Below the pieces are notes generated by a model, which ran no database searches, was not told the origin of the DNA, and worked only from the letters and a program-made list of their open reading frames with translations. This document shows, piece after piece, positions 23,911 to 35,234 of a stretch of 37,186 nt of DNA. The position numbers and the translations under genes are program-made. The stretch covers positions 1 through 37,186 of the forward strand of contig NZ_DJUR01000033.1 of assembly GCF_002440555.1 (NCBI RefSeq), read 5' to 3'. Within the stretch, counting starts at the first letter, position 1. Every line of letters begins with the position of its first letter. The DNA is from Aerococcus sp. UBA6277 (GTDB lineage Bacteria; Bacillota; Bacilli; Lactobacillales; Aerococcaceae).

Positions 23911-23945
23911 GCCATGTATGATACTTTTCATCCATGGCTTTTTTT
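23911..23945 (+). terminator. Terminator-like hairpin at the left end of the IS
   Basis: GCCATG/CATGGC (23911-23938) encloses ATGA/TCAT and is followed by TTTTTTT on the plus strand. It could stop gloA transcription entering the element, in place of the split native terminator. Confidence 0.65.
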
Positions 23946-24837
23946 ATGCCGGAATGCTTAAGCCCATTTTTAACGTCACCCGTTGAGTGTTATAAAACCC
24001 AATATATTGTTTAATATCATTCTCTAATTCTTCAAAGCTCACATAAGTCTTCAGCCGATACATTTCTTCTTTAATAATTCCCCAAAAGTTCTCCATTGGA
24101 CCGTTATCAATGCATTTCCCCACACGAGACATACTGTGGGTGAGTTGATGTTTCTTCACAAAATTATTAAAGTCGTATGACGTGTATTGATATCCCCGAT
24201 CGCTATGAATAAGCGTTTGGGTTGATATAATCTTGTCTTCAATTTGGCGAACTGTATCACGAACTAAGGCATTATCATTACGTTTCGATAGTTTAAAGGC
24301 TACGATCTTATTTTCGCCATAATCCAATATGGCACTAAGATAAGCTTTGGCGTTCTCTCCATACTTAAATTCAGTCACATCGGTTAATAAGACTTCCATC
24401 GATTGATAGTCCTTTCGGAATTCTCTATTGAGGACATTATCGGCGATATGTGCAGGATTGTGGGGCTTGTAACGATATCGTTTCCGACGGATAACAGCTT
24501 TCAAGTTCAGTAATTTCATCAAACGATAGACACACTTATGGTTTACTTTAGCGTTCATGAAGTAGTTCAGATAGATAGTTATTCGACGATAGCCATAAAT
24601 ACCTTTATGCTTTTCATAGACTTGAAGGATTAATTCAACAAGCTTTCGAAGCCGTTTTTCCGACGCAGTCGGCTTGCGTTTCAACCACTTATAATAACCC
24701 GCTCTGCTCACACCCAAAGCATCACAGAGATGGATTACTTTGTATCCTTCTTTTTGTAGTTTCTTGATCGTTTGGTATTCCGCTTCATACCTCGTTTGCG
24801 TGACATCAACTCTCTTTCCACTTCTTCTAACTTTTTT
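23944..24837 (-). CDS. IS150-type transposase OrfB, rve/DDE domain
   Basis: Catalytic half of the IS3-family transposase. DDE residues are visible: Asp in LLTDVTEFKYGENAKAYLSA, Asp in IHSDRGYQYTS, and Glu in DNGPMENFWGIIKEE. Before these lie the HTH_21-type region GVSRAGYYKWLKRKPT and KHKGIYGYRRI. There is no proper start codon: the frame stays open back to the heptamer A AAA AAG (24837-24831) in orfA. The working product is therefore the OrfAB fusion made by a -1 ribosomal frameshift, as is known for this family. A TTG at 24717 is the first internal start-like codon. The C-terminus (VTLKMGLSIPA) is a little short against relatives ending SPVEYR-like, which may be normal for this subgroup. 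Confidence 0.85.
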   Translation of the reverse strand, partial: KKVRRSGKRVDVTQTRYEAEYQTIKKLQKEGYKVIHLCDALGVSRAGYYKWLKRKPTASEKRLRKLVELILQVYEKHKGIYGYRRITIYLNYFMNAKVNHKCVYRLMKLLNLKAVIRRKRYRYKPHNPAHIADNVLNREFRKDYQSMEVLLTDVTEFKYGENAKAYLSAILDYGENKIVAFKLSKRNDNALVRDTVRQIEDKIISTQTLIHSDRGYQYTSYDFNNFVKKHQLTHSMSRVGKCIDNGPMENFWGIIKEEMYRLKTYVSFEELENDIKQYIGFYNTQRVTLKMGLSIPA

Positions 24838-25490
24838 AACGCTACGTTCTCCGTTTCTAGATACTCATTTCGTGCTCTTAAAGCTGCATTTTCAGCCCGG
24901 ATTCTTTCTTCTTCCGTTTGAACAGAGTTTGGTTTGCCGCGACCTCGTCCATCTACTAGTCCGTCAGGACCATGCTTCTTATATTTTTGAACCCATGAAT
25001 ACACGTTATTGTAGGATACCTGATACTTCTCAGCAGTTTTTTTATAAGATAAACTATTAGCTAGGCAGTCTTGGACTATTTTGATTTTTTCTTCTTGTGT
25101 TGATTTTTTATCTGTCATCGTATACACCTCGGATTTTGGAGAATAGCTCCTCATTTCTTCCCCTTTAGTATACTTGTTTATCCAGCTCCTGACAGTATCA
25201 ACTTTTGGGATATTATATTTAACAGCTAGCTGACCTATAGGTAATCTATCTTCTAAATATTCTTTCACGACTAAGTCCTTAAATTCTTTGCTATATTTAT
25301 TGTACTTAGATTTAACTTGAATCCCACTAATTCCATGCTCTTGGTATCTTAAGACTTTATCCCAAAAGGACGTCCAATTAATTAATAAACCATAGGCTTC
25401 TTTTAATTCTTTGAAACTGATTCCTTCATTCAGATACATCAAAATATATCTTTCGATTTCTTCAGTTGTATGTTTACTGTTTGAACGCAT
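24735..25490 (-). CDS. IS150-type OrfA, DNA-binding protein
   Basis: 251 aa, longer than the roughly 175 aa of IS150 OrfA. It has two or more helix-turn-helix units (about residues 10-50 and 130-170), including LPIGQLAVKYNIPKVDTVRSW and SYKKTAEKYQVSYNNVYSW, and a C-terminal leucine-zipper-like helix (about 195-225). It binds the terminal repeats and supplies the N-terminus of the OrfAB transposase. TTA AAA AAG codons at 24839-24831 form the slip site, and the -1 frame is open from there into OrfB. The ATG at 25490 is preceded by AGGGGGA, which lies inside a hairpin arm. Confidence 0.85.
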   Translation of the reverse strand: MRSNSKHTTEEIERYILMYLNEGISFKELKEAYGLLINWTSFWDKVLRYQEHGISGIQVKSKYNKYSKEFKDLVVKEYLEDRLPIGQLAVKYNIPKVDTVRSWINKYTKGEEMRSYSPKSEVYTMTDKKSTQEEKIKIVQDCLANSLSYKKTAEKYQVSYNNVYSWVQKYKKHGPDGLVDGRGRGKPNSVQTEEERIRAENAALRARNEYLETENVALKKLEEVERELMSRKRGMKRNTKRSRNYKKKDTK

Positions 25491-34612: not shown

Positions 34613-34652
34613 TTCATATCGTTCAATAAACCCTTCTTCAAAAAAAATCAAA

Positions 34653-34699
34653 AGACCCTACTAGCTAGCCTTAGCGACAACTAGTAGGGTCTCTTTTTT
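34653..34699. terminator. Bidirectional terminator
   Basis: AGACCCTACTAG (34653-34664) and CTAGTAGGGTCT (34681-34692) form a perfect 12-bp stem. The plus strand continues CTTTTTT; the minus strand continues TTTTGATTTTTTT. It serves the reductase gene and the riboswitch-controlled gene. Confidence 0.88.
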
Positions 34700-34700
34700 A

Positions 34701-35015
34701 CTACCGTATTGCTTTATAGTCCACATCTGTATAGGAAAAATTAGTAATCAAATTGACCAATTGATCATAAGTTTCAAGACTTATTGCCTCCTTAAATCCA
34801 TCATAATCATTAACATGGACTTTTCCTATACAACACACGCAAACTCTAGCAATATGTGTCCCAGAACATGGCTTATCACGACAGATCACAGCAATATGAT
34901 CATGTTCTTTAGGATCCCCTTTCTTACTTCTGTAGAAACGAAAATACGGCATAAAACCTAAGGCACCAATCCCACCTACAAATTCACTAAAACTCACGCA
35001 TTCATCATTAAACAT
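34701..35015 (-). CDS. Cys-rich orphan protein under SAM-I riboswitch control
   Basis: 104-aa soluble protein not recognised as any family. It has no signal peptide; a Gly-rich start (SEFVGGIGALGFMPYFRFYR), a central cysteine cluster (HIAVICRDKPCSGTH, then ARVCVCCIGKVHV) and an acidic C-terminal half. Six Cys and several His could bind a metal or take part in thiol chemistry; this is inference. AGGAG lies 8 nt before the ATG, and the gene is the only one behind a complete SAM-I riboswitch with terminator and promoter. A role in methionine, cysteine or SAM-related metabolism or transport is therefore likely. No frameshift is visible. Confidence 0.75.
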   Translation of the reverse strand: MFNDECVSFSEFVGGIGALGFMPYFRFYRSKKGDPKEHDHIAVICRDKPCSGTHIARVCVCCIGKVHVNDYDGFKEAISLETYDQLVNLITNFSYTDVDYKAIR

Positions 35016-35044
35016 TCAACACACTCCTAGTTATTTTATTCAAT

Positions 35045-35072
35045 AAAAAAAGCACAACGCGACTCGTCGTGC
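35045..35072 (-). terminator. Regulated terminator of the SAM riboswitch
   Basis: Minus strand GCACGAC and GTTGTGC (one G-T pair) around a 7-nt loop, followed by TTTTTTT, between the aptamer and the gene. Confidence 0.88.
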
Positions 35073-35088
35073 CAATAACTTGGTTAGA

Positions 35089-35182
35089 CTCATCTATCTC
35101 TTTCGAGTTGGAATTAGCACCTTGCCAAAGGTAGGTTGCTGAAGCTTCATAGGGCCAAATCCCTCCACTTGCTCTGAATAAG
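35089..35182 (-). ncRNA. SAM-I riboswitch (S box)
   Basis: The minus strand carries the S-box consensus in order: CTTATTCAGAGC (P1/P2 5' side), GTGGAGGGATTTGGCCCTAT, GAAGCTTCAGCAACC, AAGGTGCTAATTCC, and GAGATAGATGAG closing P1 (CTTAT with ATGAG). SAM binding should favour the terminator that follows, so the downstream gene would be on when SAM is low. Confidence 0.93.
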
Positions 35183-35205
35183 TTGTGTTCTTTAATTGTA
35201 TGCGT

Positions 35206-35234
35206 ATTATACCAAATGTATGGATAGATTTCAA
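35206..35234 (-). promoter_or_regulatory. Promoter of the SAM riboswitch unit
   Basis: Minus strand TTGAAA (35234-35229), 17 nt, TATAAT (35211-35206), with TGG before the -10 (extended -10). Transcription would start about 15 nt before the aptamer. Confidence 0.8.

Follow-up and report, generated by a model that had tools for sequence, protein, structure and literature searches.

What does a SAM-I riboswitch regulate when the only gene behind it encodes a small protein of no recognised family? The question arises near one end of the window, by which we mean the whole 37,186-nt stretch of Aerococcus sp. UBA6277 DNA that was analysed. A sequence-only reading had described here an intact promoter, aptamer and terminator ahead of a single orphan gene, and had taken the riboswitch as a strong hint to the function of the product, perhaps in metal or thiol handling or as an aid to transport.

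Anatomy of the transcription unit

The unit is predicted to be complete, with its own promoter and terminator and a single gene, and runs from 35234 to 34701 on the minus strand. The promoter (35206..35234, minus strand) combines a -35 TTGAAA, a 17-nt spacer and an extended -10 TG-n-TATAAT, matching 11 of 12 consensus positions; judged by eye, the extended -10 is seen again in most relatives and the -35 region is not conserved. The SAM-I (S-box) aptamer (RF00162; 35087..35184, minus strand) covers model positions 1–108, the full length, and scores 70.5 bits (E 1.1e-14) in a covariance-model search with a gathering score of 44.4 bits. All core elements (AGAG, GAGGGA, GGCCC, UGAA, GCAACC, and GGUGC-AA) are kept in the alignment. 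The leader is thus the SAM-I riboswitch it had been taken for, and the doubt that the covariance model might fail to recognise it did not materialise. It is the sole Rfam gathering-level match within the window, and the 1.83-Mb assembly (93.75% complete) yielded no further SAM-I.

Behind the aptamer follows an intrinsic terminator stem-loop of nine pairs (35051..35073, minus strand) with a T run to about 35044; one intrinsic terminator was found in the window leader compared with a mean of 0.6 in shuffles. The Shine-Dalgarno sequence AGGAG (35024..35028, minus strand) lies 8 nt ahead of the ATG of the 104-aa ORF (35015–34701, minus strand, stop codon included). Beyond it, a terminator-like hairpin at 34650..34695 (inverted repeat I1, no strand assigned, 15-nt arms, 93% complementary) is common to the orphan gene and a convergent NmrA-like gene and separates the two, and the orphan is indeed the sole gene of its unit. 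The upstream neighbour encodes a putative neutral zinc metallopeptidase.

Another inverted repeat, at 35026–35083, encloses the terminator and extends into the Shine-Dalgarno region (CCTAGTTATT / AATAACTTGG, plus strand). By eye, it recurs at the same region in most relatives. Elsewhere in the window, two ORFs at 23944–25490 that adjoin trp genes resemble, on reading, an IS3-type transposase pair.

The unit shares with other members of RF00162 the aptamer, the transcription-terminator platform and, judged by sequence, the SAM-off logic. It differs from the usual SAM-I in controlling a lone orphan gene and no known sulfur or SAM gene, and in an antiterminator that would form between the 5′ strand of P1 and the 3′ arm of the terminator. 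The 5′ half of this putative antiterminator, CACAAC (35182..35187, minus strand), overlaps the P1 5′ strand and is exactly complementary to GUUGUG in the terminator 3′ arm (35058–35053, minus strand). With SAM bound, P1 would form, the terminator would fold and transcription would halt; with SAM scarce, CACAAC would be freed to pair with GUUGUG and the gene would be transcribed. The 6-bp pairing is possible in 18 of 20 leaders, the exceptions being a broken copy that keeps 5 of the 6 pairs (G072) and a leader without its 5′ part (G038:C15). As the pairing hardly varies, covariation gives it little weight; the switch is inferred. Minimum-energy folds of seven full-length leaders contain the antiterminator in two (G000 and G015) and P1 plus terminator in four, while G052 differs; the folding of the window leader has a shuffle z-score of only -0.84. 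SAM is the probable in vivo ligand of the window aptamer, judging from its sequence. A consensus SAM-I of T. ilyis is reported to bind SAM and to terminate transcription at 1 mM SAM (PMC10853860).

The orphan protein and its relatives

The 104-aa protein has no match in Pfam or NCBIfam and no sequence relative in the PDB, which bears out its description as an orphan; in these family searches it matched no known family concerned with the metabolism or transport of methionine, cysteine or SAM. The window's family is represented by 76 genomes, 18 of which have a homolog once five genomes with chance-level rows only are taken from an initial tally of 23. The 24 match rows represent 23 homologous copies, the window's included: 18 full-length matches, two broken copies with the start kept (G031 and G072) and three truncated at the 5′ end. 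Among the full-length matches, two have an internal stop and G038:C15 has no visible in-frame start codon. Across 395 genomes of the wider order, clear homologs were confined to the window's family (17 genomes, with one marginal row uncounted), and none was found in the phages, plasmids or viral contigs searched. Named relatives with the gene are Fundicoccus, Ruoffia, Globicatella, Hutsoniella, Eremococcus, Jeotgalibaca dankookensis and the Aerococcaceae bacteria DSM 111176 and DSM 111020.

Wherever the 5′ end is intact, in 20 copies, a SAM-I lies 71–78 nt upstream. The three copies without one (G024:C29, G055:C3:66629, and G036:C39) all miss their 5′ part, so that homologs free of the riboswitch, which would have spoken against a functional link, did not turn up. 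Ka/Ks lies between 0.11 and 0.30 in 9 of 9 close pairs, showing at the sequence level that the ORF is under purifying selection. Because the order of aptamer, terminator and ORF recurs in 20 copies and the ORF is selected, the arrangement is not due to chance. The patchy distribution and the several broken copies mean that the gene is dispensable. A regulator that is tightly linked and defined by its ligand gives a testable handle on a protein family of undescribed role.

Two cysteine clusters had been pointed out in the protein, of which one is a family feature. The C-x-CC cluster is conserved (C59 in 28 of 28 aligned sequences, C61 in 27, and C62 in 28), but C-x4-C is not, as C45 occurs in 21 of 28 and C50 in only 5. 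The product would belong to a new family of small proteins with an alpha-beta-beta-beta-alpha fold. A structure model of the relative P0004 (pLDDT 93.5) resembles a cluster of phage proteins in Foldseek, several of them at probability 1.00, with a best E of 1.4e-3 at TM 0.66 and none reaching E 0.001. Uncharacterised proteins of phages 3-521 and LP65 (Lactobacillus), A9 (Brochothrix) and BC611 (Enterococcus) are similar to the model in predicted fold (probability 0.99–1.00, TM 0.57–0.66), but they differ from the orphan family in sequence (8–17% identity) and are 133–154 aa long.

Neighbours of the gene in related genomes

In Fundicoccus, Hutsoniella, G035 and Jeotgalibaca a large serine recombinase gene is convergent to the orphan gene at a distance of ~60–80 nt; it is shortened in Jeotgalibaca, and in the other three it belongs to a trio of recombinase, 148-aa protein and recombinase. 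Searching the 76 genomes with the recombinase gave 20 matches in 17 genomes. Five of these reach 86% identity or more, each of them directly convergent with the orphan gene or, in G024:C29, with its 3′ part; four are full length and that of G052 is reduced to residues 131–522. None of the remaining 15, whose identity is 67% or less, directly adjoins the orphan gene; two lie at some distance from a copy, 5.8 kb away in G055 and ~7 kb away in G034. Counted per copy, 5 of 23 adjoin a close recombinase and two more (L065 and L068) lie beside recombinase C-terminal remnants. Between genera, the DNA shared by the pairs compared starts ~16–36 nt upstream of the aptamer, with unrelated DNA beyond, and in recombinase-linked pairs it continues into the recombinase. 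No recombinase adjoins the window copy, and the relatives that suggest its prophage origin are 47–50% identical to it.

In G035 the orphan unit occupies one end of a ~40-kb prophage region in which amidase, holin and terminase are confirmed by Pfam, and tail and portal genes by reading only. This prophage encodes a 385-aa MetK, 45.6% identical to that of the window's genome, together with an N4/N6 and a C5 DNA methylase. The prophage of Fundicoccus (G034) likewise encodes a 385-aa MetK, 90.6% identical to that of G035, and an N4/N6 DNA methylase. The cassette is found at a prophage edge in two genomes and beside the same recombinase in three further ones; a search for attachment-site repeats of the G035 prophage yielded none that convinced, so that the cassette may sit inside it or just outside.

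The arrangement resembles that of streptococcal prophages of the Phi1207.3/Phim46.1 type, which are described as carrying MetK, ParB-type and C5 DNA methylases, lysis genes, tandem serine recombinases and, at the recombinase end, an accessory gene (PMC4260502). The order given there for Phi1207.3 is MetK, two methylases, lysis genes, two recombinases and the accessory gene at the right end. Unlike in those prophages, the cargo here is a SAM-I-switched orphan gene. The recombinase is less than 60% identical to those of all 144 matching phage records, and the genes immediately beyond the recombinases vary among four recombinase-related phage records. A riboswitch that controls an accessory gene on a phage genome, as proposed here, has a parallel in the glutamine riboswitch with tmRNA of phage Melnitz; ligand class and target are different there and the phage is marine, and the Melnitz report calls riboswitches a rare feature in phages (PMC9004378).

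A neighbour of another kind is seen in three close relatives (G015, G017, and G018; orphan genes 93–94% identical to that of the window), where a Cys/Met PLP-enzyme gene (PF01053 in G015, E 2.3e-139) lies 1–2 kb from the orphan gene behind a T-box leader (L109 3550–3800, L108 5071–5321, and L110 8091–8340). It forms a transcription unit separate from the SAM-I unit, and in G015 and G018 an Rrf2 regulator and an NmrA-like gene stand between the two. The enzyme gene is absent from the window and from 17 other orphan-family loci tested, with a 43-residue remnant kept at L107. Its proximity fits a sulfur role, which the orphan protein may still have.

The locus with that remnant (L107, G055:C3) and L109 of G015 have in common an island, ~94–96% identical between the two genera, that reaches from the NmrA-like gene to an apparent pdxS. 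In G055 this island holds a 3′ remnant of a window-type copy.

SAM-I leaders in other genomes and the role of the protein

We read 68 SAM-I leaders. Of the 61 that the window's family has, 51 were covered, and the 17 genomes of families f3, f4 and f6 with a match contributed all of their 17. G064:C45 and nine low-scoring leaders of genus g19 were left unread in the window's family, and families f2, f7 (3–7 SAM-I per genome), f8 and f9 lay outside the survey. Small orphan genes stand downstream of 59 of the 68 leaders, 44 of 51 in the window's family and 15 of 17 in the other three. Giving the window's family before the other three, they comprise the family of the window protein (20 and 0), our types D (13 and 4), B (5 and 5), C (4 and 3) and E (2 and 0), and singletons (0 and 3); the letters B–E are our own labels, and the representatives used for sorting were drawn from the same leaders. 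The remaining leaders precede metK (3 and 0), a metK-like remnant (2 and 0), metN (0 and 1), an amino-acid permease gene (0 and 1) or no recognised gene (2 and 0). Ten representatives of the orphan types gave no Pfam match above the cut-off. Family-wide searches with B_73 and C_102 found three and four homologs, all behind SAM-I, although the B copy of G003 has internal stops. Genes of types B–E lie in chromosomal contexts without the close recombinase.

The textbook methionine riboswitch thus mostly heads small orphan genes in the four families read, and in the window's genome the host metK stands directly behind a SAM-III switch. SAM-III is present in 62 of the 76 family genomes; the 14 without it comprise three with metK behind SAM-I (G073–G075) and 11 others. 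Streptococcaceae and nearly all Lactobacillus are reported to have lost SAM-I, a loss correlated with other regulators, among them the Smk-box and T-boxes (PMC3766115). The linkage of the window's gene to SAM-I has proved stronger than the sequence-only reading had claimed. The step of that reading from there to a sulfur-pathway, thiol-handling or transport function has fared less well in view of the many orphans behind SAM-I, metK under SAM-III and the prophage-type recombinases that recur as neighbours elsewhere, with the T-box Cys/Met gene of three relatives in its favour.

Several minor observations were made among these leaders. Solitary unrelated small proteins (60–135 aa) stand behind SAM-I in G017, G013, G003, G210, G080, G101, G190 and G246 (L035, L036, L095, and L145–L149). 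Types B and C appear by eye to have a DPxxxxS...RR-like stretch in common, and a 'GGPKSxAEAMxxHxxK'-like motif (E about 1e-4 to 1e-5) joins SAM-I-headed proteins of genus g19 and family f3 (L037, L156, L157, L160, L161, and relatives). The leaders without a recognised gene of the sorted types downstream are G038:C29 (L051) and G024:C91 (L100).

On balance we favour, at a little better than an even chance, the reading that the orphan is a prophage cargo gene induced by SAM shortage and now resident in the window's genome. Promoter, SAM-off transcriptional riboswitch, gene and terminator would form a self-contained cassette that spread with Phi1207.3/Phim46.1-related prophages and in some genomes still sits at their recombinase-side edge. 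The window copy would be a solitary, chromosomal and still selected descendant, its prophage origin being suggested by its relatives. When SAM is too low for DNA to stay methylated, the target of the protein might be a phage-host or restriction/methylation partner, with a block of self-restriction as the likeliest effect. Such low-SAM anti-restriction is our leading guess and the weakest step of the proposal; action on restriction, methylation or phage growth, taken together as one class, is the role we favour, at well below an even chance. Should the cargo reading be true, cells and prophages would read the methyl-donor pool as a sign of conflict or of failing DNA methylation. A wider version, to which we give a low probability, would have SAM-I serve as a conflict sensor in bacteria of the order and in their prophages. 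SAM shortage through starvation, heavy DNA methylation or an incoming phage would then induce unrelated small effectors (at least types A–E) whose targets are restriction, methylation or phage growth, and the window's gene would be the prophage-borne branch.

The main competitor, which we regard as unlikely though well worth keeping in view, is a host helper in methionine/SAM homeostasis that at low SAM would tune the uptake of methionine or the activity of MetK or of methyltransferases, with no more than an incidental link to prophages. It accords with the usual service of SAM-I to this pathway, with the chromosomal contexts of types B–E and with purifying selection in four g1 genomes that have no close recombinase nearby, three of which carry the T-box enzyme gene. 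That gene, however, is its own unit, lies past two genes in G015 and G018, and is missing at the window and 17 other loci tested; the host metK has a SAM-III of its own, and the patchy presence and broken copies mark the orphan gene as dispensable. A defence or superinfection-exclusion gene would suit the cargo position, the phage-like fold cluster, the turnover of copies and the SAM-off logic. Phages can encode SAM-degrading enzymes, and such a gene would be triggered when an incoming phage destroys SAM. PADLOC, however, assigned the window protein to 0 families, its best value being 0.013 in one of 28 family members, and we think this role improbable.

Very little probability remains for a recombination directionality factor that would let the adjoining large serine recombinase excise the prophage with SAM shortage as the signal. 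Such factors are small, diverse and without family signatures, which would agree with the orphan protein, as would its convergent position in five of five close cases; yet the ORF is under purifying selection also in genomes without that recombinase, and several copies stand alone. Least probable of all is a SAM-I variant that senses another ligand, e.g., spermidine. A spermidine variant with the same four-stem architecture as the window aptamer is documented, including in Trichococcus (PMC10853860); it has a changed pocket and polyamine genes, whereas the window leader has the consensus pocket and no polyamine gene downstream. In genus g19, eleven SAM-I rows of 43.7–45 bits (two read, one aligned) may be such variants; the aligned one scores 44.8 bits and has changes in AGAG and elsewhere, in contrast to the consensus core and far higher score of the window's aptamer.

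Two of these g19 leaders, L105 and L106 (G069:C25 and G071:C1; ~45 bits, changed core), head a 531-aa ORF. It opens with a short stretch similar to the N-terminus of MetK (57% over 21 aa, E 0.002), and the part that follows looks by eye like an amino-acid decarboxylase. This fits the published Trichococcus spermidine riboswitch and hints at its origin from a metK leader.
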